From: Pegea sp. RAD2-039 | Lineage: Eukaryota; Chordata; Thaliacea; Salpida; Salpidae | Assembly (NCBI GenBank): GCA_034620365.1 | Contig: JAQGEQ010000332.1 | Coordinates: 124,001 to 188,000 of the forward strand | Direction of reading: 5' to 3' | DNA length: 64,000 nt | Shown here: positions 12,431-61,678 of the stretch, one piece after another | Numbering within the stretch: position 1 is the stretch's first letter | Layout of the letters: the number at the start of each line of letters is the position of its first letter | Notes under the pieces: model-generated | Seen by the model: only the letters and a program-made list of their open reading frames with translations | The model's database searches: none | What the model was told of the DNA's origin: nothing | Translations under genes and position numbers: made by a program

Positions 12431-12794
12431 AAAATATTTAATACATAACATAAATTCTATTTGAATAAGGTTATTCAGGTTATAGGTTGTTAGGATAACA
12501 AATTTATTCTGATATTGCTTATAAGCTTTGATAAAACTGTTTTCAGTAAAGGATTTGTATATTTTTTGTGATCATATCTGGATTAGAAATCAATTTGGAC
12601 TTTTTATCATCTTCAATTTCTATATACTCTATTTGAATAACTGCTAATAAGCTGTGATTAAGTTTTGTGGTGTATTTATTAATTATATTTTATTAACTTG
12701 GTATATTTGTTTATATATTTATTTATATACAAATCACATACAATTATCTGACTTATAAATTTCATACTTTGGTGGGAGTTACTAAAAATCTATC

Positions 12795-13790
12795 ATGGAA
12801 ACTATGGTAGATACAAATGGCAGGACCTTGCGGTTAAAAGCTCCAAAAAACCCAAGCAAACCAAGTTCTTCACAACAAGCTTGCAATGGCAATTGCCAAG
12901 CTTGTAACAAAACTTGCTCTGGTGAAGATATGGCAATAGATTGCATCAAATGCCTCTCTAGGTTTCACCTCACTTGTAGTGATGTGAATAAAAAATTATA
13001 TGATATATTTGAAAATAATAAAATGCAGCAAGTGGGATTTTGTTGGTTCTGCATTAAATGTAGATCTATGGACAAAACAACTACCTCGTCCAACACTAAC
13101 AAAAGCTTATTGTCCGACATCAGCAACACCATGTCCACTGAATTGGCCAAATTAAAATCCGAAATTGGCAACGATGTTGCCAAAATCAATGAAAAGATTT
13201 CTATCTTATCAAAATCTATGGATGAACTGGATGCCTCCACAAAGAAGCCTCTCACATGGGCCTCAGTTGTTGGTAATTCTGGATCCGAAAAAAATACTAG
13301 CGTGGTGCAACTTCTTGCCAAGAAGGTTACTGACACGCACAAAAAACTTACTCTGGACCGGGAGGATAGAGAAAACAATGTCATCATCTTTGGTGTCTCC
13401 GAGACTGATAAAGACGATGACATCAAGACTTTTAATCAAATGAGCACTCAAAGCCTTGGTTTTGTGGACGCTCCAAAAGTTTCAATGACCAGACTCGGGG
13501 CAAAAAGATCAAATCATAAAAGACCGTTAAAAGTGTCTTTTCAGGAAAGATGGGACAAACGTAAGTTTCTTGCTAAGCTGTATAAGCTTAAGCAGGACGA
13601 AAAATTCCAGGGCATCAGAGTAGCACATGATATGTGTGACGATGATCGCTCAGAAAATAAGCGTCTTCTAAAAGAGGCGTACAGCCGAAATCAGAAAGAG
13701 CAACCAACTGATTTCAAATACAAAGTTCGAGGTCCACCATGGGCTTTAAAGATTGTGAAGGTCTTTTCAAAAAACGGAAGTGCAAAATAA
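12795..13790 (+). mobile_element. LINE ORF1, PHD-type zinc finger and nucleic-acid-binding protein
   Basis: An intact 331-codon frame. Residues about 30-90 contain paired cysteines and a histidine in a PHD-like order (CQAC, CIKC, FHLTC, CWFC and IKC). The C-terminal half has the usual LINE ORF1 arrangement: a segment reading NVIIFGVSE, then RPLKVSF and a basic region ending in KRLLKEAYSRN. PHD-bearing ORF1 proteins are known in CR1/L2-type elements of invertebrates. ORF1 overlaps the upstream end of the ORF2 frame, so the two are closely packed. GC content is higher than in the surrounding DNA, as expected for an element that arrived more recently than its flanks. Confidence 0.85.
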
Positions 13791-15626
13791 CTACTGGACC
13801 CACATCATCCTTATTCAACCTCTCTTCGCACAAAATTATTAATACTATGCTTCCAGCTCAGGATAACAGTACACAGAAGCCTATCACCAAATCTTACAAG
13901 TGTCAAAAAGACAATTTTTCCTTTATATTAGGTATGTTTTTCAACGCACGGTCAATTGTCAACAAAATTTTCGAATTGAAAGCTCTTTTGCTTTCTCAAG
14001 ATTTTACATTTGTTTTCATTACCGAAACTTGGTTGAAACCCTTTTATCCTGACTCCTTTCTGGATGACAGTGATCTTTCTCGTGCTTTGCGCTGTGACAG
14101 ACTGTTTGATAGAGGCGGCGGTGTTTGTGTAATCTATAAAACATCACTGGCACCTATGATTTCAAGAATTAAGATAAATACCATTGACTGCCCAGGATTT
14201 GAGATTATTGCTTTCAATTTTCATTACTCAAAGTCTAAGTTTTCCCGCTTTATATGTACCTACCTACCACCATCTAAAGTTAACGATGATGTTACTATTA
14301 AGGCCTTATTGAAGGTTCTGAAAAGCCTAATTTGTCCTGAGATCTATATTCTTGGGGATTTTAATTTTCGTAGAATTGATTGGAATAACCCAAATTTAGC
14401 ATTCAATGGAAAATTGTTTAATTTGAATGGAGACAAAACTTATTTAGCCAATCTGAGTCATGTCTTTGTAAACTTCCTTGATGCCAATAATCTATCTCAG
14501 ATGGTTACTTTTCCAACCCAAGTTAGTGGTAATACTTTGGATCTTCTCATCACATCAAAACCTGAGAACGTTATCTACGTTGATCAAAATGAACCTTTTG
14601 CTCTGACATGCGATCACAACATGATTGAATTCAAGCTCCATCAAACTTTTTCTATGAACGTTAAAACTCCAAGCATACGGAACTTTTATCGTGGAAATTA
14701 TAACAGTATAAACAAGTTTTTATCAGGTGTTGACTGGATTTCTGTTTTCAACTCTACCGAAGACATCAATGATATCTACTCGAGGTTTACTAACATTGTT
14801 AATGAGTCAATTAAAAAGTTCATACCTTTATATAGAGTCAACAAAAAAACCACACTTGCCAAGATATTTAAGGAATTTACAGCATTTGAAAAACCTCTTA
14901 TACAAACAAACTAAAGCAGATCCTTCCATCAAACCTCTATACAAAGATCTTTGTCTAGTCTACAAGAAATCAGTTTATAGCTTCTATTTAGGAAAAGAAA
15001 GTGTAATCTTATCTTCACCTAGCAAGAAAACGTTTTTTGGCTTCATTAATCACAAGCTTAAGGCGAGATCTCATCTAACTCCCTTGCTTGATAACGCCAA
15101 TCAGCTGGTGATGGAACCAAAGAATAAAGCTGAATTGCTAAACAAACAATTTGAAAAGGTTTTTATAACCGATGATGGCAATACTCCTACTATTTCCTAC
15201 TCCAATATCCTTTCAAATATCTCTGAGATGGTAGATCTAGACATAACAGCTGATATAGTATCTAAGGCTATTTCTTCTCTAAAATCAACAGTTTCCAACA
15301 CCCCAGATCAAATCCCAGCTTTGTTTTTAAGAAAAAGTACTTCTTCTTTAGCGCTACCCTTATCGCTACTCTTTAACATGACTCTTAAGCGGGGAAGACT
15401 TCCACAAATTTGGAAGAATGCTATTATTACTCCAATTTATAAGAAGGGTCCCAGAAACACTGCACTTAACTACAGACCAGTTTCGCTGACTTCGGTTATC
15501 TGCAGAACTCAAGAACACATCATTCACAACCATATAACTAGCCATTTGACGGAGCATCATCTAATATCTGATGTCCAGCATGGCTTTGTTAAGCAAAGAT
15601 CTTCTTTAAGTTACAAAATGTTTTGA
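13739..15626 (+). mobile_element. LINE ORF2 (endonuclease and partial reverse transcriptase), broken and truncated
   Basis: The first frame (13739-14914; likely first Met at 13847) carries an APE-type endonuclease: FNARS, ITETWL, GDFN, LDLL and CDHN occur in the expected order. The reading then shifts to another frame (open 14727-15626) at an A-run near 14840, where one extra base breaks the protein. The second frame continues into the N-terminal part of the reverse transcriptase (ITPIYKKG, NYRPVSLTSV, QHGFVKQRS). The sequence ends abruptly at about 15612, before the YADD active-site motif, and runs into repeat family R1. The element therefore cannot move by itself. The family assignment to the CR1/L2 group rests on ORF layout and motifs only. 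Confidence 0.85.
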
Positions 15627-18954: not shown

Positions 18955-19734
18955 CTGTTGCTGTTGTTTTGTTGTTATTTTGTTTTTATTTGTTTCGGTT
19001 GTGTTTTTGTTTTATTGTTGTTTTATTGTTGTTTTATTGTTGTTTTATTGTTGTTTTATTGTTGTTTTATTGTTGTTTTATTGTTGTTTTATTGTTGTTT
19101 TATTGTTGTTTTATTGTTGTTTTATTGTTGTTTTATTGTTGTTTTATTGTTGTTTTATTGTTGTTTTATTGTTGTTTTATTGTTGTTTTATTGTTGTTTT
19201 ATTGTTGTTTTATTGTTGTTTTATTGTTGTTTTATTGTTGTTTTATTGTTGTTTTAGTTTTTTATTGTTGTTTTATTGTTGTTTTATTGTTGTTTTATTG
19301 TTGTTTTATTGTTGTTTTATTGTTGTTTTATTGTTGTTTTATTGTTGTTTTATTGTTGTTTTATTGTTGTTTTATTGTTGTTTTATTGTTGTTTTATTGT
19401 TGTTTTATTGTTGTTTTATTGTTGTTTTATTGTTGTTTTATTGTTGTTTTATTGTTGTTTTATTGTTGTTTTATTGTTGTTTTATTGTTGTTTTATTGTT
19501 GTTTTATTGTTGTTTTATTGTTGTTTTATTGTTGTTTTATTGTTGTTTTATTGTTGTTTTATTGTTGTTTTATTGTTGTTTTATTGTTGTTTTATTGTTG
19601 TTTTATTGTTGTTTTATTGTTGTTTTATTGTTGTTTTATTGTTGTTTTATTGTTGTTTTATTGTTGTTTTATTGTTGTTTTATTGTTGTTTTATTGTTGT
19701 TTTATTGTTGTTTTATTGTTGTTTTATTGTTGTT
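18955..19734. repeat. 11-bp minisatellite (TTTTATTGTTG)n
   Basis: From 19009 to 19734 the unit TTTTATTGTTG is repeated about 66 times with only one clear interruption near 19252-19262. The 50 bases before it are T/G-rich and look like a degenerate start of the array. Because 11 is not a multiple of three and the unit lacks stops on the plus strand, all three plus-strand frames are open and spell an 11-residue hydrophobic period (FIVVLLLFYCC). I regard these frames as by-products of the repeat. The plus strand of the array has no cytosine. Confidence 0.97.
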
Positions 19735-25344: not shown

Positions 25345-28300
25345 CAAAGCCAAAAAGCGATTTTAATTCCAAAGGTAGCTGAGAACCTATTTTTAGTTTT
25401 GAGGTTAGCTGAGTTCCAGATTTTAGTTCCAAAAGTAGTTGTGTCACAAATTTTCGTTCAAAAAGTAGCTAAGTTCCACATTTTAGTTTTGAGGCTAGAT
25501 GAGTTCCACATTTCAGATCAAAGGTAGCTGAGTCCCACATTTCAGGTCCAAAGTTAACTGAGTTCCACATTATAGTTTTGAGGCTAGATGAGTTCCACAT
25601 TTTAGTTCCAAAAGTAGCTGAGTTCCACATTTCAATTCCAATGATAGGTGAATTCCACATTTGAGTTACAAAGTTAGCTAAGTAACACATTTTAGTTTTG
25701 AGGCTAGTTGAGTTCCAAATTTCAGATTAAAGACAGTTGAGTTCCACATTTCAGTTCCAAACGTTGCTGACTTCCAGATTTTAATTCCAAAGGTAGCTGA
25801 GAACCAAATTTTAGTTTGGAGGCTAGCTGAGTTCCATATTTTAGTTCCAAAAGTAGCTAAGTTCCACATTTCAATTCCAAAGGTTGCTGACTTCCAGATT
25901 TTAATTCCAAAGGTAGCTGAGAACCAAATTTTAGTTTGGAGGTTAGCTGAGTTTCACATTTTAGTTCCAAAAGTAGTTGTGTCACAAATTTCCGTTCAAA
26001 AAGTAGCTAAGTTCCACATTTTAGTTTTGAGGCGAGATGAGTTCCACATTTCAGATCAAAAACAGTTGAGTTCCACATTTCAGTTCCAAAGGTTGCTGAC
26101 CTCCAGATTTTAATTCCAAAGGTATCTAGAACCAAATTTTAGTTTGGAGGCTAGTTGAGTTCCACATTTTAGTTTCAAAAGTAGCTGAGTTCCACATTTC
26201 AATTCCAAAGGTTGCTGACTTCCAGATTTTGAATCCAAAGGTAGCTGAGAACCAAAATTTAGTTTGGAGGATAGCTGAGTTCCACATTTTAGTTCCAAAA
26301 GTAGCTGAATTCCACATTTCAGTTACAAAGGTAGCTAAGCTCCACATTTCAGTTCCAAAAGTAGCGGAGTTCCACTTTTTAGTTTCGATGTTGTTGTGGT
26401 TCTCATTTCAGTTCTAAAAGTAGATGTATTCCACATTTCAATTCCAAACGTAGCTAATTTCCACATTTTAGTTTTGAGGCTAGACGAGGTTCACAATTCC
26501 GATCAAAGGTAGCTAAGTCCCACATTTCAGTTCCAAATGGTGCTGAGTTCCACATTTTAATTCCAAAGGTAGCTAAATTCTACATTATAGTTTTTAGGCT
26601 AGCTGTGTTCCACATTTTTGTTCCAAAAGTAGCTGAGTTCCACAATTCAATTCCAAGGGTTGCTGACGTCCAGATTTTAATTCCATAGGTATCTGAGAAC
26701 CAAATTTTAGTTTGGAGGATAGCTGAGTTCCACATTTTAGCTCCAAAAGTAGCTGAGTTCCACATTTTAGCTCCAAAAGTAGTTGAGTTTCACATTTCAG
26801 TTCCAAAGGTAGCTGAATTCCTGATTTTAATTCTAAAGGTAGCTGAGAACCAAATTTTAGTTTGGAGGATAGCTGAGTTCCACATTTTAGTTCCAAAAGT
26901 AGCTGAATTCCACATTTTAGTTCCAAAAGTAGCTGGGTTTCACATTTCAGTTCCAAAGGTAGCTGAATTCCTGATTTTAATTCTAAAGGTAGCTAAGAAC
27001 CAAATTTTAGTTTGGAGGATAGCTGAGTTCCACATTTTAGTTCAAAAATTAGCTGAGTTCCACATTTTAGCTCCAAATATAGCTAAGCTCCACATTTCAG
27101 TTCCAAAAGTAGCGGAGTTCCACATTTTAGTTTCGATGTTGTTGTGGTTCTCATTTCAGTTCTAAAAGTAGAAGTATTCCACATTTCAATTCCAAACGTA
27201 GCAAATTTCCACATTTTAGTTTTTAGGCTAGCTGAGTTCCACATTTTTGTTCCAAAAGTAGCTGAGTTCCACATTTCAATTCCAAGGGTTGCTGACTTCC
27301 AGATTTTAATTCCAAAGGTATCTGAGAACCAAATTTTTAGTTTGGAGGATAGCTGAGTTCCACATTTTAGTTCCAAAAGTAGCTGAGTTCCACATTTTAG
27401 TTCCAAAAGTAGCTGAGTTCCACATTTTAGTTCCAAAAGTAGCTGAATTCCACATTTCAGTTCCAAAGGTAGCTAAGCTCCACATTTCAGTTCCAAAAGT
27501 AGCGGAGTTCCACATTTTAGTTTCGATGTTGTTGTGGTTCTCATTTCAGTTCTAAAAGTAGATGTATTCCACATTTCAATTCCAAACGTAGCTAATTTCC
27601 ACATTTTAGTTTTGAGGCTAGACGAGGTTCACAATTCCGATCAAAGGAAGCTATGTCCCAAATTTCAGTTCCAAATGGTGCTGAGTTCCACATTTCATTT
27701 CCAAAGGTAGCTAAGTTCCACATTTTAGTTTTGAGGCTAGCTGAGTTCCACATTTTTGTTCCAAAAGTAGCTGAGTTCCACATTTCAATTCCAAGGGTTG
27801 CTGACTTCCAGATTTTAATTCCAAAGGTATCTGAGAACCAAATTTTAGTTTGGAGGATAGCTGAGTTCCACATTTTAGTTTCAAAAGTAGCTGAGTTCCA
27901 CATTTTAGTTCCAAAAGTAGCTGAGTTTCATATTTCAGTTCCAAAGGTAGCTGAATTCCTGATTTTAATTCTAAAGGTAGCTAAGAACCAAATTTTAGTT
28001 TGGAGGATAGCTGAGTTCCACATTTTAGTTCCAAAAGTAACTGAGTTTCACATTTCAGTTCCAAAGGTAGCTGAATTCCTGATTTTAATTCCTAAGGTAG
28101 CTGAGAACCAATTTTTAGTTTTGAAGTTAGCTGAGTTCCAGATTTTAGTTCCAAAAGTAGTTGTGTCACAAATTTCCGTTCAAAAAGTAGTTAAGTTCCA
28201 CATTTTAGTTTTGAGGATAGATGAGTTCCACATTTCAGATCAAAGGTAGCTGAGTCCCACATTTCAGGTCCAAAGTTAACTGAGTTCCACATTATAGTTT

Positions 28301-31300
28301 TGAGGCTAGATGAGTTCCACATTTTAATTCCAAAAGTAGCTGAGTTCCACATTTCAATTCCAATGATAGGTGAATTCCACATTTCAGTTACAAAGTTAGC
28401 TAAGTAACACATTTTAGTTTTGAGGCTAGTTGAGTTCCACATTTCAGATTAAAGACAGTTGAGTTCCACATTTCAGTTCCAAACGTTGCTGACTTCCAGA
28501 TTTTAATTCCAAAGGTAGCTGAGAACCAAGTTTTAGTTTGGAGGATAGCTGATTTCCATATTTTAGTTCCAAAGATAGCTAAGCTCCACATTTCAGTTCC
28601 AAGAGTAGCGGAGTTCCACATTTTAGTTTCGATGTTGTTGTGGTTCTCATTTCAGTTCTAAAAGTAGAAGTATTCCACATATCAATTCCAAACGTAGCTA
28701 ATTTCCACATTTTAGTTTTTAGGCTAGCTGAGTTCCACATTTTTGTTCCAAAAGTAGCTGAGTTCCACATTTCAATTCCAAGGGTTGCTGACTTCCAGAT
28801 TTTTATTCCAAAGGTATCTGAGAACCAAATTTTAGTTTGGAGGATAGCTGAGTTCCACATTTTAGTTCAAAAATTAGCTGAGTTCCACATTTTAGTTCAA
28901 AAATTAGCTGAGTTCCACATTTTAGTTCCAAAAGTAGCTGAGTTTCACATTTCAGTTCCAAAGGTAGCTGAATTCCTGATTTTAATTCTAAAGGTAGCTA
29001 AGAACCAAATTTTAGTTTGGAGGATAGCTGAGTTCCACATTTAGTTCCAAAAGTAGCTGAGTTTCACATTTCAGTTCCAAAGGTAGCTGAATTCCTGATT
29101 TTAATTCCTAAGGTAGCTGAGAACCAATTTTTAGTTTTGAGGTTAGCTGAGTTCCAGATTTTAGTTCCAAAAGTAGTTGTGTCACAAATTTCCGTTCAAA
29201 AAGTAGCTAAGTTCCACATTTTAGTTTTGAGGCGAGATGAGGTTCACAATTCCGATCAAAGGTTGCTAAGTCCCACATTTCAGGTCCAAAGTTAACTGAG
29301 TTCCACATTATAGTTTAGAGGCTAGATGAGTTCCACATTTTAATTTCAAAAGTAGCTGAGTTCCACATTTCAATTCCAATGATAGGTGAATTCCACATTT
29401 CAGTTACAAAGTTAGCTAAGTAACACATTTTAGTATTGAGGCTAGTTGAGTTCCACATTTCAGATTAAAGACAATTGAGTTCAACATTTCAGTTCCAAAC
29501 GTTGCTGACTTCCAGATTTTAATTCCAAAGGTAGCTGAGAACCAAATTTTAGTTTGGAGGATAGCTGAGTTCCACATTTTAGTTCCAACAGTAGCTGAGT
29601 TCCACATTTTAGTTCCAAAAGTAGCTGAGTTTCACATTTCAGTTCCAAAGGTATCTGAATTCCTGATTTCAATTTCAAAGGTAGCTGAGAACCAAATTTT
29701 AGTTTGGAGGATAGCTGAGTTCCACATTTTAGTTCCAACAGTAGCTGAGTTCCACATTTTAGTTCCAAAAGTAGCTGAGTTTCACATTTCAGTACCAAAG
29801 GTAGCTGAATTCCTGATTTTAATTCCAAAGGTAGCTGAGAACCAAATTTTAGTTTTGAGGTTAGCTGAGTTTCACATTTTAGTTCCAAAAGTAGTTGTGT
29901 CACAAATTTCCGTTCAAAAAGTAGCTAAGTTCCATATTTTAGTTTTGAGGCGAGATGAGGTTCACAATTCCGATCAAAGGTTGCTAAGTCCCACATTTCA
30001 GTTCCAAATGGTGCTGAGTTCAACATTTCAATTCCAAAGGTTGCTGACTTCCAGATTTTAATTCCAAAGGTAGCTGAGAACCAAATTTTAGTTTGGAGGC
30101 TAGCTGAGTTCCACATTTCAGTTGCAATGTTAGCTGAGTTCCACATTTCAATTCCAAATGTAGCTGAGTTACGCATTTTAGTTTCGATGCTAGTTGTGGT
30201 TCTCATTTCAGCTCCAAAGGTAGCTAATTTCCACTTATTAGATTTGAGGCTCTTAGAGTATTACATTTTATTTCCAAAAGTAGTTGTGTCACACATTTCC
30301 GTTCCAAATAGTGCTGAGTTCCACATTTCAATTCCAAAGGTAGCTAAGTTCCACATTTTAGATCCAAAAGTAGTTGTGTCACAAATTTCCGTTTAAAAAG
30401 TAGCTAAGTTCCACATTTTAGTTTTGACGCTAGTTGAGTTCCACATTTCAGATCAAAGACAGTTGAGTTCCACATTTCAGTTCAAAACGTTGCTGACTTC
30501 CAGATTTTAATTCCAAAGGTAGCTGAGAACCAAATTTCAGTTTGAAGGCTAGTTGAGTTCCACATTTCAGTTCCAAATGGTGCTGAGTTCAACATTTCAA
30601 TTCCAAAGGTTGCTGACTTCCAGATTTTAATTCCAAAGGTAGCTGAGAACCAAATTTTAGTTTGGAGGCTAGCTGAGTTCCACATTTCAGTTCCAATGTT
30701 AGCTGAGCTCCACATTTCAATTCTAAATGTAGCTGAGTTACACATTTTAGTTTCGATGCTAGTTGCGGTTCTCATTTCAGCTCCAAAGGTAGCTAAGTTC
30801 CACATTTTAGTTTTGAGGCTAGCTGAGTTCCACATTTTTGTTCCAAAAGTAGCTGAGTTCCACATTTCAATTCCGAGGGTGGCTGACTTCCAGATTTTAA
30901 TTCCAATGGTATCTGAGAACCAAATTTTAGTTTGGAGGATAGCTGACTTCCACATTTTAGTTCCAAAAGTAGCTGAGTTCCACATTTTAGTTCCAAAAGT
31001 AGCTGAATTCGTGATTTCAATTCCAAAGGTAGCTAAGAAGCAAAGTTTAGTTTGGAGGCTAGCTGAGTTCCACCTTTCAGTTCCAATGATAGCTGAGCTC
31101 CACATTTCAACTCCAAATGTAGCTGAGTTACACATTTTAGTTTCGATGCTAGTTGTGGTTCTCATTTCAGCTCTAAAAGTAGCTAATTTCCACATTTTAG
31201 TTTTGAGGCTAGATGAGTATCACAATTCCGATCAAAGGTTGCTAAGTCCCACATTTCAGTTCCAAAAGTAGCTGAGTTCCACAATTCAATTCCAAAGGTA

Positions 31301-32998
31301 GCTAAGTTCCAGATTTTAATTCCAAAGGTAGCTGAGAACCAAATTTTAGTTTGGAGGCTAGCTGAGCTCCACATTTCAGTTCCAAAGGTAGCTGAATTCC
31401 TGATTTTAATTCCAAACGTAAATGAGAACTAAATTTTAGTTTGGAGGTAAGCTGAGTTCCACATTTTAGTTCCAAAAGTAGTTGTGTCACAAATTTCCGT
31501 TAAAAAAGTAGCTAAGTTCCACATTTGAGATTTGAGGCTAGATGAGTTCCACATTTCAGTTCAAAACGTTGCTGACTTCCAGATTTTAATTCAAAAGGTA
31601 TCTAGAACCAAATTTTAGTTTGGAGGCTAGTTGAGTTCCACATTTTAGTTCCAAAAGTAGCTGAGTTCCACATTTCAATTCCAAGGGTTGCTGACTTCCA
31701 GATTTTAAATCCAAAGGTAGCTGAGAACTAAATTTTAGTTTCGAGGTAAGCTGAGTTCCACATTTTAGTTCCAAAAGTAGCTGAATTCCACATTTCAGTT
31801 CCAAAGGTAGCTAAGCTCCACATTTAGTTCCAAAAGTAGCGGAGTTCCACATTTTAGTTTCGATGTTGTTGTGGTTCTCATTTCAGTTCTAAAAGTAGAT
31901 GTTTTCCACATTTTAATTCCAAACGTAGCTAATTTCCACATTTTAGTTTTGAGGCTAGACGAGGTTCACAATTCCGATCAAACGTAGCTAAGTCCCACAT
32001 TTCAGTTCCAAATGGTGCTGAGTTCCACATTTCAATTCCAAAGGTAGCTAAGTTCCACATCTTAGTTTTGAGGCTAGCTGAGTTCCAAATTTTTGTTCCA
32101 AATGTAGCTGAGTTCCACATTTCAATTCCAAGGGTTGCTGACTTCCAGATTTTAATTCCAAAGGTAGCTGAGAACCAAATTTTAGTTTGGAGGCTAGCTG
32201 AGTTCCACATTTCAGTTGCAATGTTAGCTGAGTTCCACATTTCGATTCCAAATGTAGCTGAGTTACACATTTTAGTTTCGATGCTAGTTGTGGTTCTCAT
32301 TTCAGCTCCAAAGGTAGCTAATTTCCACATATTAGATTTGAGGCTCTTAGAGTATTACATTTTAGTTCCAAAAGTAGTTGTGTCACACATTTCCGTTCCA
32401 AATGGTGCTGAGTTCCACATTTCAATTCCAAAGGTAGCTAAGTTCCACATTTCAATTCCAAAGTTAGCTAAGTTCCACATTTTAGATCCAAAAGTAGTTG
32501 TGTCACAATTTTCCGTTTAAAAAGTAGCTAAGTTCATTTTAGATTTGAGGCTATATGAGTTCCACATTTCAGATCAAGGACAGTTGAGTTCCACATTTCA
32601 GTTCAAAACGTTGCTGACTTCCAGATTTTAATTCAAAAGGTATCTAGAACCAAATTTTAGTTTGGAGGCTAGTTGAGTTCCACATTTTAGTTCCAAAAGT
32701 AGCTGAGTTCCACATTTCAATTCCAAAGGTTGCTGACTTCCAGATTTTAATTCCAAAGGTAGCGGAGAACCAAATTTTAGTTTTGAGGTTAGCTGAGTTC
32801 CACATTTTAGTTTCCACTTTCATAAACTTTCTGAGTTTCCACTTTGTTAAGTGGCTAGCTTAGTTTTAATTTCAGTTCTGAAGGTAGCTGAATTCCACAT
32901 TTCAGCTCCAAAGGTAGTTTTGTTCCGCATTTTAGTTCCAAAGATAACTGAGTTCCACATTTTAGTTTCGAGGCTAGTTGATGTCCACATTTTAGATC
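25345..32998. repeat. 30-bp satellite array, 7.6 kb
   Basis: About 250 tandem units of 30 bp. A typical unit reads GTAGCTGAGTTCCACATTTT followed by AGTTCCAAAA. Units fall into recognisable variants (for example those with GAGGCTAGCTGAG, with GAACCAAATTTTAGTTTGGAGG, and with GATGTTGTTGTGGTTCTC), and the variants recur in the same order in several longer stretches, so the array has an irregular higher-order structure. Since 30 is a multiple of three, frames stay open over many units on both strands: plus-strand frames spell a ten-residue period like AEFHILVPKV, and minus-strand frames spell periods like MWNSATFGTK and ELKCGTQLLL. The longest is 237 codons. Frequent stops elsewhere argue against one protein. 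Confidence 0.97.
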
Positions 32999-34710: not shown

Positions 34711-35634
34711 TTCATTAACGTGTATCAAGAATTTGATATATTTACTTTTCCAAAATATTGGCGGAAACATATTATATTGCATTATATAAAAATTTACGTT
34801 TCTAACCTTAGCAAGCCACCTTTTTTATTACTATACAAAAGGAAAGACATTTTATAAAAGTTTCTTTATTACTTGATAATGAACGGCGTATCTAAAGCTG
34901 TGTAATCCAATAAATATATTTATAGAAAATTACAAATTAAATCATGAAAATTTATAAACCATAAACTCTATGAAAATAGGATTTAGGTTGTAAATAAAAA
35001 TGTAAAATTAAAAAACAAACTCAAACAGGCATCAACTTTGAACTCCAGATTTCCTTCTGAACAATTTTGGCATATAAAATTACAAGCACCAATGTTTCAA
35101 AAATAGTCTGTGAGTTTCTAAAAAAAAAAACGGGTTATAAACACTCTATTACCAATTTTTTCTGATATTTTTTTTATATTATTTTATTCGCCTATATTAA
35201 ATAGTTTAACTGATTTTTTATTTTATCTTAACTGTGCTTAAGAAGTTTTTAAAAGCTTATTTGAAAATAATTTGAAACTGATTTGATCTAAAAATTAAAA
35301 ACTTGAATAAATTACCTAGTTATTTTTTTATATATTTTTTTTAGTTATTTTTAATTTGATTACAATAATTTTTATAATGTACTTTTTTATGAAATTCTGG
35401 AAACATTAAAAAAATTTAATTTCTTTTTTTATTTATTTATATTTTTTTGAAGGATTAGTTTTAGAAAATAAGCTTTGTTATAACTGGATTTATATTCTTA
35501 TTTAACAACTAAAGTAAAAAAACATAAAAAGAACAGCATCATATAGGTTTAACAATTATATATCAATAATAACATTATATAAATAATTTTCTACTTTTGT
35601 ATTTTAGGTGCACCTGTTCTTAAGAATATTCATA
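34711..35634. other. 5' flank of the UHRF1-like gene
   Basis: No coding sequence recognised. An acceptor-like ATTTTAG ends at 35607, 27 bases before the presumed start codon, so a non-coding first exon probably lies somewhere upstream. Confidence 0.4.
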
Positions 35635-38460
35635 ATGTATATAAAATTAAGGATATCGAAAAATCATCTACTTTTTAGAGTTGGTAAGACAGCAAAAGTT
35701 ACAAAATTAAAAACATTTTTAGGAAAAATTTTACAAATCAGTGATAAGTTCATAGAAATTTATCATCTTGGAACACCATTAAATGGACCCCAAGGAATCT
35801 ACTTTAGACAGATATTCCTTAATGTTTATATAGACTATGCTGGCTGTCAGAGAACGCAAGAAGATATTGAAAAAGCCATTGAAAATCTCAAGAAACCTTT
35901 TGAGTATTTGGATGTGACATTTGTAGGCAAATTATCGGTAAGTAATGTAATCTTAAGGATAAAATGTTCTAACTTTTTGTAAAAATGATTCTTAAGAAAA
36001 TAAGAGTAATATATAAAAATCCTGGGCAACTTATAGTTGAAATCTCATCCCAGTATTATCAAGAAGATCCACTTAAAGTGTTGCCATTACAGAAAGGACT
36101 CTCCAATAAACTACATTCTGCTGAGAAGGGAAGTCAACCAATCCAAACAACAAGCTCTAATTGTGAAGTTAAAAGTCCGAATGAAATTCCTTTAAATTCT
36201 GAAGTATATAATGGTATGATTATTAAAGATAAACCAACTTCCAACTATAATATAAAGATCTTGTAGTTGTCAAAACTGTTAGTGATGAAAAACAACTAGA
36301 CAATACTACTGAGAAAAAAAGTGATTCCAATGAACCAGAAAGTCAGGATATACAGTCAACAAGTTTTCAGCCATCAAATGATGACCATGAATTAAGTAAA
36401 ATATATGTCATTTTCTATATTTTTAATGAAGTATAACATTAAATTTAATCAAATAACCTAAAATAGAAGCTAAATGACCTAAATTTATTGAAAAAATGTT
36501 TACAAAATTTTAAATGAAATAAATTGAAATCTTTTTAGCCGGATCAAGCAGAAAAACAAGACAAACAACAATTGAATCTTTTATTAGAGGTAAACGTAGT
36601 AATTTAAATCTGTTTGTTTAATTAAACGTTTTATATTCAGTAAATGATGATAATGATGTGGCTATGAACCAAGATAATGAAAATACCATCCAAAGTCCTC
36701 CAATTAAACGTAAGAAATTGATATCAACAGACAACACATCTACCTCGACTGGTAAGTCTTGTCTGCTTTTGAAAGAATGAAGTAATTCTTAAGAAGTAAA
36801 TATAAAGCAATAAAGTCCATATTTACTTATGAAGTTGCGTGCAGTTTCATTTGACAAGTCTTTGTTTGCATTAACAACAAAACACGATTTTAAGGTGATC
36901 AGATATCAGATATTTCTTGGGAAATACAATTGAATAGTAAGGAGCACCGAAGTTTGGAATTAGAGCTATCACAGTTGGCCAGTAGATTCAAGTCAACAAT
37001 TGAATATTCATCGCCAGTATCAAATAGCAATGGTAAGTTCTGTTAAACTTTTAACTAAAAATGTTAATTATCAAAACACGCTGGGGTATAAATCAGAAAA
37101 ACTATTTGAATAGATGTTTCGGTATTTATTTTCCAAAAAGTTTTTAGTTGTAACAACGAGTGGGTTTTCTACTGCTTATTTTAAACTGTATGCAATTTTC
37201 AAAGATGAAGATGTTCAAAATGAAGAAGATGATGGAGAAAGTACAGACGAGGCTGATAAGACAAAAGAAGTAGTAGAAAAAATTCTTGAAGACAAAGATC
37301 GTAGGGATACAGAAAATGAAGACGAGGAGGAAGCTGAGAAAGAAAATGAGTCTGCAGTGGTAAAAGCACTATGCGTAACCACTCCTAAAGATGAAGCAGA
37401 ACCTGTTGTAGATACAAAACAACAAAAAAGAGAAGAATCAACATTACTTCTAGTTGAAAAAAGCCAGCGCAGTGTACCAAAGTTAGATTTCAAAAAAATG
37501 TCTGCTGAGGATTTCGAACGAGAATTACATTTAAGTAAAAAAAGATTTGTATATCAATGTAACAAAACATCGACTTTGAAACGAGTTTCATTAAACGAAA
37601 TGAAATATGATCCATCAAAACGTCTAATCAAGATAGATGACTTTGATATCTATCCACATAATGTATTTGCTACAGTTATTAATGATGATTTATTAATTGA
37701 TCTCTTACCAGGAAGAATGTTTGCTGCTTATTTAAAAATCTTTGGTCAGAGGAAAGCATTGTATGCTGTAAACCTCTTAGATAAGACTGATTGTCAAATG
37801 GATGAAGCTCATGTAAATCTTTTTGTTGCCGATTTTGGCGTATATAAAAGTGTCAAGATTAAACGCAATACCATCAAATATCAATTGCAATTCTCTGTGG
37901 CTGACGTTCTGACAAAGGGTACTAATTGGACATGGAATGAACAATTAGATAAGGCAAAATCACAAACGAAACCTAAAACCTCAATAACTGAAGATTTGAA
38001 GTTGGAATACGTTAGTGAAAACATTCATGATACCTTTGGAAAAATTCGAAAATTAGATAAAGGTTTTCTAGCGAATGATCGAGAAACCTTAGCAACAAAG
38101 AGGGTTCATAAATCAAGAGAACACTTTTTATGCACTAAGAATGGATATTTGTGTTCAATTATTATTAATGATATGTTCTTGGTGAGAGATTGTGGATCTT
38201 CTTTTATAATCAAAGGTCGAAATAAAAAGGGTAGACCACGTAGTAGTTCGGAAAAGATGCTTTTTGAAATATTCGTCGTCATGGAAAAGTTTCAAGATCG
38301 AGCAAACCAAGCTGCGTCAAAAACTGTACGAGTAGTACGAAGTTCCCATTTACAAAACAAGTATTCCCCAAAAACAGGATTTAGATATGAAGGCTTGTTT
38401 AAACTGAGAGATGTTACTGAAGTTGATAACCACATTCAATACCAATTCATTTTAGTGTGA
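35635..38460 (+). CDS. UHRF1-like protein: ubiquitin-like, PIP box, SRA-like, no RING
   Basis: Seven exons join in consistent phase: 35635-35937, 35997-36213, 36258-36395, 36539-36589, 36641-36751, 36895-37032 and 37148-38460 (756 residues; introns 44-143 bases). The N-terminus (MYIKLRISKNHLLFRVG, then TKLKTFLGKI and YHLGTPL) matches the UHRF1 ubiquitin-like domain. Residues 228-235 read QTTIESFI, a PCNA-binding PIP-like motif close to that of DNMT1, followed by a basic PPIKRKKL. An acidic stretch follows (about residues 325-400). The C-terminal 140 residues match the SRA domain: FGKIRKLDKG, VHKSRE, NGYLCSIII and best KTVRVVRSS with FRYEGLFKL. The protein stops right after SRA, so the RING E3 part of UHRF1 is missing, and I see no tandem Tudor or PHD. 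The aromatic residues that hold 5-methylcytosine in UHRF1 are not conserved. Likely nuclear, chromatin or replication linked; that is inferred. Confidence 0.75.
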
Positions 38461-42282: not shown

Positions 42283-42774
42283 TTAAGAAGTCTCATTATC
42301 AATAGTTGTGATCAACTTTAAGCCACAACTTGGACAATGCAAGCAACATGACCAAAAGCGAACCGCACAAGCATAATGAAACTTGTGCTTACATTTTGTG
42401 GTTATAAACTGTAGAATTTCTTGATTTTGTTTACTACAAATACAGCAAATAGGTTCACCACAAACTTCGCTTCGAAAAAAAGTTTCAGCAGCTACTTTAT
42501 TAAGGATCTTATGACCGACAGGAAAATCATATGGGCATTTCATATTATTGCATTTTTCTATCAGCTCTTTGATTGTCGATGATGTAAGAGCTGTATCATT
42601 ATAGTCTTCTTCGTTTTTCACAACTTCTTTTGTAATATTTTCTGTTCGGTTCAATTCTCCTTTAGTCAGAGCCATCTCTTCTAGAAACAAACTTTATTAC
42701 GTTTTTATGAAAGAATTAATTGTTATAGTAAATACTACCTTTCTCCTTTTCTTTTATTTCTGAATAATCCTTTG
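42283..42774 (-). CDS. RING-H2 zinc finger protein, probable E3 ubiquitin ligase (5' end incomplete)
   Basis: The last exon (42680-42283) encodes about 130 residues ending with a RING-H2 finger: CCIC, 14 residues, CKHKFHYAC, 10 residues, CPSC. All eight metal ligands are present in order C-C-C-H-H-C-C-C, as in ubiquitin ligases of the RNF type. A 36-base exon (42774-42739) is flanked by CTACAG and GTAGTA and joins in phase, adding KDYSEIKEKEKEE before MALTKGE. Exons further upstream are not resolved. A candidate first exon lies at 45502-45449 (MFENSTKQINRLVYQEYQ, then GTAAGT), but it ends in phase 0 whereas the 36-base exon needs phase 1, so either another exon lies between or the two are unrelated. 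The protein has no membrane segment in the part seen. The substrate is unknown. Confidence 0.7.
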
Positions 42775-59000: not shown

Positions 59001-59458
59001 ATGTTGTTTAATTTACTTAAAATGTGCTTGTTTGGTGTTGCATATCAATTAAAATTTAAATTATTTTATATTTAAACTAATTTTTATTGTGAATGTTAAA
59101 CTTAAATTTTTATTGAAACTAAGAATGTCTTGGATAATGATTTATAGTTATAGTATAACTATGAAAACTTGTAAAATGCAAATTTTAGAACAAAACGTTT
59201 TCAATCACTGTTTTAAAAAATTATTGTGCTCATTGAAATTTTTGTTGTAATTCTTTTAGTTTAATTATAAAACAGTTGTAACCTATAGTAATTTCTTATG
59301 TTTATTTTCATTAAACTTGTATATTCAATAATAACAACGTAAGTTTTCAATAAAGCGTTTGTTTAAACCAAATTATTAGGTATGTAATCAGAGTTATATT
59401 CATGTATGAATTTTTATAATTATACAGACCTTAAGATACAGAAAAAGATATATAACAA
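56001..59458. other. AT-rich region without a recognisable gene
   Basis: Very AT-rich throughout with no open frame over 60 codons. The right end should hold the promoter of the 739-residue gene; TATACAG at 59422-59428 looks like an acceptor, so a non-coding exon may lie in this region. Confidence 0.45.
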
Positions 59459-61678
59459 ATGGATACAACAAAAGTTTTTCATTATTCTTCATGTTTGAAA
59501 GTATTTCCTTTAAAAGATCATCATTTTTATATTGTTAAATGCAATTTACTGAAAAGTGCACAGCAGCATTTGTTGGGTGAAGCTTTCCAACAAACTTGTT
59601 TTAACGTAGATAATATTGTTAGTAATTTGGACGATAATCTTATTGGAAAATTGTTGAAAAAACAAAACGTAGCCTTAGCTGGACATGTTTACTGGGTTTC
59701 AATAGATGATGACAAACTCAGTATATCAGAATTAAAAAACTTTAAAGTTGAAAGTGAAGAACTTGAAAAGGTGGTCGCTGATTTGTTGTTTCGACTTGGT
59801 TTTGAATATGCAAAAATGAAGTTTAAAAGTATAGAAGAATTTTTTGTTTGTCTTGAAATGTTAAAACATTTTCTTTTCATTTCTAACAAACTCCAAAATT
59901 GTCAAACTTTTTGGAAAAAGAGAGTATTAGCATTATCTGCTTTTATTTGTCTAATTTCAGACTCGCTGTCTAAAACTGATAAAAGTAGTCCTGATGCAAA
60001 TGCTAAACTTCAATCAATTGTTGAACAGTTTTCATTGATTTCAAATGACTGCATCACAAGATCAATTAAACTCGAATCATCTTTACACCATCATTATACG
60101 TTGCTTTCATTTTTAGATTGTTCTGTTTTCCAACTGATTGCACCTGATATCAGTGAGTTAGAAGTTCAATGTTATAAAGATCATATTTTTAATATGATGG
60201 GAAAAGTGTTTTACATTGAAATGATTTTACATTTTGAAAGAGAATACAAAGAAGTTTTAAATAGTTCAGTCACTCACTGCGGAAAATTTTTATATGACGT
60301 AATCACTAACAACTATACTAATAGAACTGACTCAATAATGGTTTCACTTGAATCTAAAAGGTTTTTTTCCTTTCTAATTATTTCCTTAAAGGTGCTAATT
60401 TCAGCCAAACTTATCAATTATGTCTTGTTTACATCTTCTGCTATTAGAATTAAAGATAATTTTGAATTTAATCCAAAAGTTTATAAACATTTTGACTTTC
60501 TCGAAACTACTAAATTAACATCATTAAATGTTGAGAAAGAAAACGGAATGGAAAAATTTAACAGTCTGAAATTGTTGTCTGAGCAGCTACATTGGATATC
60601 TAGATTGTCTTATCAAGTTGTTAGCTATAACAAAATATTTTTTTCATTTATAAACATCTACATTGTTATAAAAAATCATCTACGTAGAGAATTATCAAAA
60701 TACTTCGAGGTATTTCAGCAAGTTGTATTGGGTCCAAATGTAGATGATATATTTGACAGTGAAAGTTTCCAGAGACTAAAGCCTGCTACAAGCTATCTGA
60801 TGAAAATTCTAAAGTTTGCTGGCCTAATTGATTTATTCAAAACTGAGCTATTGATTACGTTTGAAAGGTTATTGAGAAAGTGTATAAGAACTAAAAATAA
60901 AACAGTATTAAACTCCTTATTATCACAAGTTTGGGAAGAGGTAAATGATTACATTGAGCAAATTATGATTAAAGAAAAGAAATTTTTAGACCTTTATAAG
61001 GATGACTTTACTATTTTGTTATTTCTCGTGGAAAATAAATTCTTTTTTCAATTTGGATTAAAGACTAAGCAAACAAAATCGTTTGTTGAATGTACAACAG
61101 CTTTGCCTTTATCCATTTTATCGAAAATTGAGACATCACAACTTCTGCAACTACTTAGCACTTATTTAAATATGATGAAGCATTCACATACATGTGACTA
61201 CTTAAGTTACAAAATCAAATATTACAAACTCACAGAAAAAATCATTAAACTTATACAAACATTGAGTTTTGTGTTAGCAAATTCGTCAATCAGCCTAAGT
61301 GAATATGGAAAACTTGAGGAGTTTTTCATTGAAAGTATTACTTTTTGTCAACGTTTAAGCTGGGCTAGAGGACGCTTATATGTATTTAGTTGTTGGTTTG
61401 ACATATTAAACTGTTTTTCTAACAAAAACCATGAGAGAGTAATCTTTGGTTACAAAATGTTAACTGAAATGTTACAGAATTTTACAAAAAATTCAGAATT
61501 CATAATAATCAATCAGCATATTGATTATTTTGTTGAAAGTTTGTTTGAAAAGTGCAGAGTAAACTCGCATAAAATCATGGAACGATTAAATCTTTGTCCA
61601 AAGTCAAAGCACAGAAATTCTATCAAAAGGGCATTGGAAAAGATTGACCAAGCTAAAAATATTTTTTATACTCGTTAG
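59459..61678 (+). CDS. Intronless 739-residue protein of unknown family
   Basis: A single uninterrupted frame starts at ATGGATACAAC (A at the -3 position) and ends CTCGTTAG. It is the longest frame in the window and has the codon usage of the other AT-rich genes here. The protein is rich in Leu, Phe, Lys, Ser and Glu with short amphipathic segments throughout, consistent with an all-helical, repeat-type fold. I see no signal peptide, no clear membrane helix, no zinc-binding cysteine pattern and no nucleotide-binding motif. Features that might help a search are ISELEVQCYKDHIFNMMGKV near 235, RLKPATSYLMKILKFAGLID near 440, and SWARGRLYVFSCWFDILNCF near 640. It could be a large helical scaffold of the genome-maintenance or trafficking type, but I do not recognise it. 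An intronless gene of this length among intron-rich neighbours could also be an old retrocopy. An AATAAA at 61943-61948 may be its polyadenylation signal. Confidence 0.75.
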   Translation: MDTTKVFHYSSCLKVFPLKDHHFYIVKCNLLKSAQQHLLGEAFQQTCFNVDNIVSNLDDNLIGKLLKKQNVALAGHVYWVSIDDDKLSISELKNFKVESEELEKVVADLLFRLGFEYAKMKFKSIEEFFVCLEMLKHFLFISNKLQNCQTFWKKRVLALSAFICLISDSLSKTDKSSPDANAKLQSIVEQFSLISNDCITRSIKLESSLHHHYTLLSFLDCSVFQLIAPDISELEVQCYKDHIFNMMGKVFYIEMILHFEREYKEVLNSSVTHCGKFLYDVITNNYTNRTDSIMVSLESKRFFSFLIISLKVLISAKLINYVLFTSSAIRIKDNFEFNPKVYKHFDFLETTKLTSLNVEKENGMEKFNSLKLLSEQLHWISRLSYQVVSYNKIFFSFINIYIVIKNHLRRELSKYFEVFQQVVLGPNVDDIFDSESFQRLKPATSYLMKILKFAGLIDLFKTELLITFERLLRKCIRTKNKTVLNSLLSQVWEEVNDYIEQIMIKEKKFLDLYKDDFTILLFLVENKFFFQFGLKTKQTKSFVECTTALPLSILSKIETSQLLQLLSTYLNMMKHSHTCDYLSYKIKYYKLTEKIIKLIQTLSFVLANSSISLSEYGKLEEFFIESITFCQRLSWARGRLYVFSCWFDILNCFSNKNHERVIFGYKMLTEMLQNFTKNSEFIIINQHIDYFVESLFEKCRVNSHKIMERLNLCPKSKHRNSIKRALEKIDQAKNIFYTR

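Follow-up and report, generated by a model that had tools for sequence, protein, structure and literature searches.

The window, a 64-kb stretch of Pegea DNA, contains a seven-exon gene whose predicted product is a relative of UHRF1 that ends in an SRA core. UHRF1 and UHRF2 are the animal E3 ligases of maintenance methylation, and the SRA is the methyl-DNA-reading domain of UHRF1. We take it as roughly an even call that the gene is a highly divergent UHRF1 paralogue, or else encodes a protein that acquired its SRA part from one. In sequence, its nearest relative is a single-exon UHRF1 gene on contig C74 of the same genome. The features discussed below are collected in Table 1.

Table 1. Features of the window gene, and DNMT1-like loci elsewhere in the genome. 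Positions without a contig name are those of the window.
Feature	Position	Strand	Remark
Open frame between acceptor-like AG (35606-35607) and ATG	35608..35634	+	sequence and frame as read; role putative
Exon 1	35635..35937	+	101 codons from ATG 35635; as modelled
Exon 2 (linker)	36054..36213	+	joined gene model
Exon 3 (linker)	36267..36395	+	joined gene model
Exon 4, 51 nt	36539..36589	+	joined gene model
QTTIESFI, residues 206-213, PCNA-interaction (PIP)-box-like	36562..36585	+	final position non-aromatic
Exon 5 (linker)	36641..36751	+	joined gene model
Exon 6 (linker)	36895..37032	+	joined gene model
Exon 7: acidic stretch, middle region, SRA-like C-terminus, stop TGA	37205..38460	+	
Middle region	37471..37914	+	Tudor-like by eye only
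SRA-like domain	38035..38433	+	SAD_SRA positions 2-132 of 148; N-terminal two thirds suggestive only
Conserved SRA core VRVVRS..NKYSPKTGFRYEGLFKL	38311..38436	+	homology secure
Polyadenylation signal AATAAA	38475..38480	+	first base 15 past last stop base
DNMT1-like without catalytic motifs	L012 C32:24489; L013 C32:36749; L014 C32:10146; L015 C52:9209		replication-foci domain upstream

The gene is real. When its seven exons are joined, they give one frame of 715 amino acids with a single stop. The six introns, 51-172 nt in length, all run from GT to AG, and every junction keeps the frame. The first-pass annotation had read the gene in this way, and both its in-phase junctions and its polyadenylation signal are borne out. 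Intron 2 measures 53 nt and is required for a change of frame; introns of about 50 nt are also found in the UHRF1 gene on contig C76, where the gaps between exons are 56, 48 and 48 nt. The GC fraction is 0.331 in the exons, against 0.161-0.294 in the introns and 0.23-0.24 in the flanks. Exon 7 lies inside an open frame of 448 codons in AT-rich DNA, and 300 simulated 64-kb sequences (first-order Markov) had no open run longer than 215 codons. At the other end of the gene, a pyrimidine tract ending in AG, 27 bases ahead of the ATG, resembles a splice acceptor, and the reading frame is already open from 35608. The 5' end as modelled may be incomplete, with the stretch ahead of the ATG being possibly 5' UTR or the coding part of an upstream exon.

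The connection to UHRF1 is carried by the C-terminus. Against the Pfam SAD_SRA profile, the exon 7 frame scores 22.1 bits (E 1.4e-4), the last 187 residues score 24.5 bits (E 2.4e-5, aligned from profile position 2), and the last 55 residues alone score 20.3 bits; all of these, at about 20-25 bits, stay under the curated cut-off of 30.7 bits. Because the last 55 residues reach 20.3 bits by themselves, nearly all of the signal sits in VRVVRS..NKYSPKTGFRYEGLFKL. None of 200 shuffles aligned as well as the SRA-like region to a profile of four UHRF1 SRAs (hhalign), most of the shuffle tests given here relying on profiles built from four SRAs, three UBLs or two TTDs only. Likewise, none of 2000 shuffles did as well as the last 48 residues in pairwise comparison to the human, C74 and C76 SRAs; the scores were 96 for C74, 80 for C76 and 65 for human. 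Besides its own locus, a genome search with exon 7 hit only the UHRF1 gene on C74 and two partial copies. Sequence comparison thus confirms the SRA homology of the last ~40 residues, and to that extent the SRA-like C-terminus claimed in the first-pass annotation stands.

The N-terminal two thirds of the claimed SRA are another matter. In local pairwise comparisons of this part, 1397, 1857 and 880 of 2000 shuffles were as good as the real sequence. An HMM of the four UHRF1 SRAs scored 433 of 1000 shuffles of this part as high, and it gave the whole SRA region 27.4 bits where the C-terminal part alone reached 27.8. An AlphaFold model of the exon 7 core alone had a pLDDT of 33 and was unusable. 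The homology of the ~90 residues ahead of the core is only suggestive, and we read the whole as an SRA that is probably complete but strongly altered. The main rival to a diverged SRA paralogue is a chimera, in which an unrelated host protein acquired no more of an SRA than its C-terminal ~45 residues, from a duplicated fragment, and has no SRA domain as such. Its host part would consist of a ferredoxin-like or RRM-like N-terminus and the middle region. Such a capture would explain why the secure homology is limited to the last ~40 residues, it has a parallel in the partial SRA copies at two places on C74, and it would suit the ferredoxin-like model obtained for exon 1 (see below). We nevertheless consider it unlikely. 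Only the real sequence aligns from SAD_SRA position 2; none of nine shuffles of the N-terminal part does so, their alignments (16.9-21.1 bits) beginning at profile positions of at least 55. When that part is aligned globally with an anchor, only 58 of 2000 shuffles are as good. Finally, as a portion of one barrel, the SRA core would be unlikely to fold by itself.

If the protein is indeed a diverged UHRF1 paralogue, its SRA is probably no longer a reader of methylcytosine. In human UHRF1, Tyr466 and Tyr478 are described as sandwiching the flipped methylcytosine, Asp469 as bonding to it and Thr479 as recognising cytosine (PMC5995235). With these four positions counted on the human row of an alignment to UHRF1 from the PDB, the C74 gene has Y, D, Y and S and the C76 gene has Y, D, Y and T. 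The window gene reads SIIINDMFLVRDCGSSFIIKG at the pocket, giving F, no Asp in register, I and K, in a register that is uncertain because the first two thirds of the domain have no independent signal. In that alignment, none of the four residues is identical and at most one aromatic is left, and neither Y-x-x-D nor Y-T-G is present in the pocket region. Methylcytosine reading has probably been lost, and with the pocket gone, hemimethylation is probably not read by this protein.

By searching the genome with SAD_SRA, it is possible to see what stands beside the window gene. There are four matching places: one UHRF1 gene each on C74 and C76 and, also on C74, a pair of partial copies, which cover positions 58-140 of the profile. 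The C74 gene (L001:373-2439, C74:342265) is a complete, single-exon gene of 688 aa that matches UHRF1 in the PDB at 4.7e-92. The C76 gene bears introns. Both encode ubiquitin, PHD, SRA and RING domains, so the genome does hold full UHRF1, twice over. Since two fuller UHRF1 genes are present, the window gene is an addition and need not replace UHRF1. It lies under the threshold of this search, and further diverged SRAs could be missed in the same way. A decaying UHRF1 duplicate, a pseudogene in the making that is open so far by chance, would account for the rapid divergence and would be at home in a genome with partial SRA copies and abundant copies of UHRF1 and DNMT1. We find this quite improbable, since the gene, although set in AT-rich DNA, keeps 715 codons open across its seven exons, its splice sites are usable, a polyadenylation signal follows, and the GC content of the exons still exceeds that of the introns.

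The first-pass annotation also saw a ubiquitin-like sequence at the N-terminus, and this is not supported. A Pfam profile search finds no ubiquitin domain in the exon 1 protein, although both other UHRF1 genes match ubiquitin (PF00240) at 3.2e-10 and 7e-13. The shuffle tests are mixed. In hhalign, 6 of 200 shuffles fit a profile of three UBLs equally well. In pairwise comparisons out of 2000, the number of equally good shuffles was 29 for what we take to be the human UHRF1 sequence, 364 and 868 for the genome's two UHRF1s and 958 for ubiquitin. The AlphaFold model of exon 1 has a ferredoxin-like layout, beta-alpha-beta-beta-alpha-beta, at low confidence (pLDDT 65). Two fold comparisons of that model did not have ubiquitin among the matches listed, at least 50 in each, though exon 1 may have a ubiquitin-like fold all the same. 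Against the PDB, exon 1 has one match at chance level (phmmer, E 0.87). A genome search with exons 1-6 gave six matches, all at their own locus on contig C43, and found no paralogue of this portion. The opening residues M-Y-I-K-L-R, set beside M-W-I-Q-V-R of UHRF1, together with the human and hhalign comparisons, would suit a stripped UHRF1 that has a ubiquitin-like start and a working SRA and, though no ligase, serves maintenance methylation together with DNMT1, but we strongly doubt it in view of the comparisons to ubiquitin and the genome's own UHRF1s, the missing Pfam match, a low-confidence exon 1 model that is not ubiquitin-like and the loss of the pocket residues.

No Tudor match to the window protein appears in Pfam, and the likeness of the middle region to a tandem Tudor, noticed by eye, was dropped because 46 of 200 shuffles were equally good in hhalign against a profile from two TTDs. 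The tandem Tudor model PF12148 has no match anywhere in the genome, the two other UHRF1 genes included. Being blank even at those genes, the model is insensitive in this genome. The middle region has one PDB match, at chance level (phmmer, E 0.39). For the PHD there is no Pfam match, and the 715 residues include 8 Cys and no C-x2-C pair. There is no RING either, the protein ending right after the SRA. We regard the absence of RING and PHD from the predicted protein as confirmed. The middle domains and the RING had been described as absent or unrecognisable; for RING and PHD this becomes absence, while the Tudor is not detectable. Lacking a RING, the protein cannot be a RING ligase, and the earlier picture of a protein without a ubiquitin-ligase part of its own agrees with this. 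The sole frame in the window with a RING pattern lies at 42325-42447 of the minus strand; a small RING-like protein is encoded there (42283-42693, minus strand, 3.8 kb downstream of the gene), matching zf-RING_11 at E 0.0018, which is under the cut-off. Within the linker, QTTIESFI is a weak lead as a PIP-box-like motif: the pattern Q..[ILM]..F[FYI], which was loosened to fit and chosen after seeing the sequence, is present in 3.35% of 2000 permutations.

A role can be sketched for a diverged paralogue of this kind. The C-terminus would have an SRA-type fold with the core kept and the methylcytosine pocket gone, the fold as a whole being presumed. Our best guess, a conjecture, is that the protein would be a nuclear adaptor associated with DNA or chromatin. 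The SRA remnant would make sequence-independent contact with DNA or protein, and the long acidic, charged linker, perhaps by way of the PIP-like motif, might connect the protein with factors of replication or chromatin. A tie to PCNA or to DNMT1 would likewise be conjectural. Histone H3 would not be ubiquitinated by this protein.

Compared to UHRF1 and UHRF2, the window protein shares the C-terminal SRA core and has its best match within its own genome in the C74 UHRF1. It differs in being without RING, PHD and 5mC pocket residues and in having the SRA as its last domain, and the ubiquitin-like and tandem Tudor parts are not demonstrable in it. The SRA core motif is also common to the TagI restriction endonuclease (6ghs), which is the best PDB chain for the window protein (phmmer, E 0.29), and to plant SUVH SRAs, but the window protein has neither a nuclease nor a SET domain. 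UHRF1 homologues with an SRA and no RING are already in print, drawn as opaque boxes (PMC10538959). They are like the window protein in that combination, as far as description goes, and unlike it in that the text of that source, as excerpted, does not mention loss of the pocket. The chaetognath Paraspadella gotoi has duplicated, domain-poor paralogues of UHRF1 and DNMT1, which offers a likeness in the form of extra copies of both with lost domains in one animal; its UHRF1 copies are reported to have lost the ubiquitin domain, whereas the losses of the window gene include RING, PHD and pocket (PMC12460157). In the open-licence literature of PubMed Central, we found no description of the window gene, and we did not meet pocket loss paired with DNMT1 copies that lack their motifs. 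If the SRA fold has been kept without pocket and RING, this would be a natural separation-of-function relative of UHRF1, in which the functions of the SRA scaffold beyond reading methylation could be studied.

The DNMT genes give the genomic setting. A genome search with DNA_methylase gives 11 matches, which are seven DNMT1-like loci, one DNMT3 (8.9e-80 to DNMT3A) and three exons of a DNMT2 gene (6.2e-32 to DNMT2 for the largest exon match). A replication-foci domain lies upstream at all seven DNMT1-like loci. DNMT1 proper is present, in that three loci, two on C57 and one on C249, keep the catalytic motifs PCQ, ENV and QTR. In the other four all three motifs are replaced, and the frames are open over 832-873 codons. 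Two of these four, L014 and L015, share 96.8% identity; they may be allelic, as may their contigs, C32 and C52. By pairwise Nei-Gojobori estimates, in which the closest pairs have few changes, dN/dS is 0.82-0.89 for three of the motif-less pairs and 1.57-2.54 for the other three (dS 0.006-0.035), and 0.23, 0.24 and 0.59 within the motif-bearing trio. If the SRA fold is kept without pocket and RING, the window gene, next to such motif-less copies, would suggest that one animal lineage has a maintenance system that was reworked and is partly non-enzymatic. It is a long shot that the window protein and the four motif-less DNMT1-like proteins form the two halves of a second version of the maintenance system that does not methylate, evolving fast and serving as a replication-coupled reader, decoy or repressor, with mobile elements as one conceivable target. 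Two of the motif-bearing genes, L009 (C57:825001) and L010 (C57:819728), have 88% protein identity and stand ~4 kb apart in opposite orientation.

The rest of the window holds several other features. On the plus strand, 59456-61678 is an open frame of 740 codons with no Pfam match even at E 10. A 7.6-kb satellite (25360-32995), 2.6 kb upstream of the gene, consists of 255 copies of a 30-bp unit with 69% matches and by chance yields long open frames on both strands. A tandem array at 18962-19734 has 70.6 copies of the 11-bp unit TGTTGTTTTAT. At 12786-15626 lie the remains of a non-LTR retrotransposon, in which a PHD-like ORF is accompanied by an ORF for an endonuclease (Exo_endo_phos_2, 8.6e-12) and by the beginning of a reverse transcriptase (3.6e-4).
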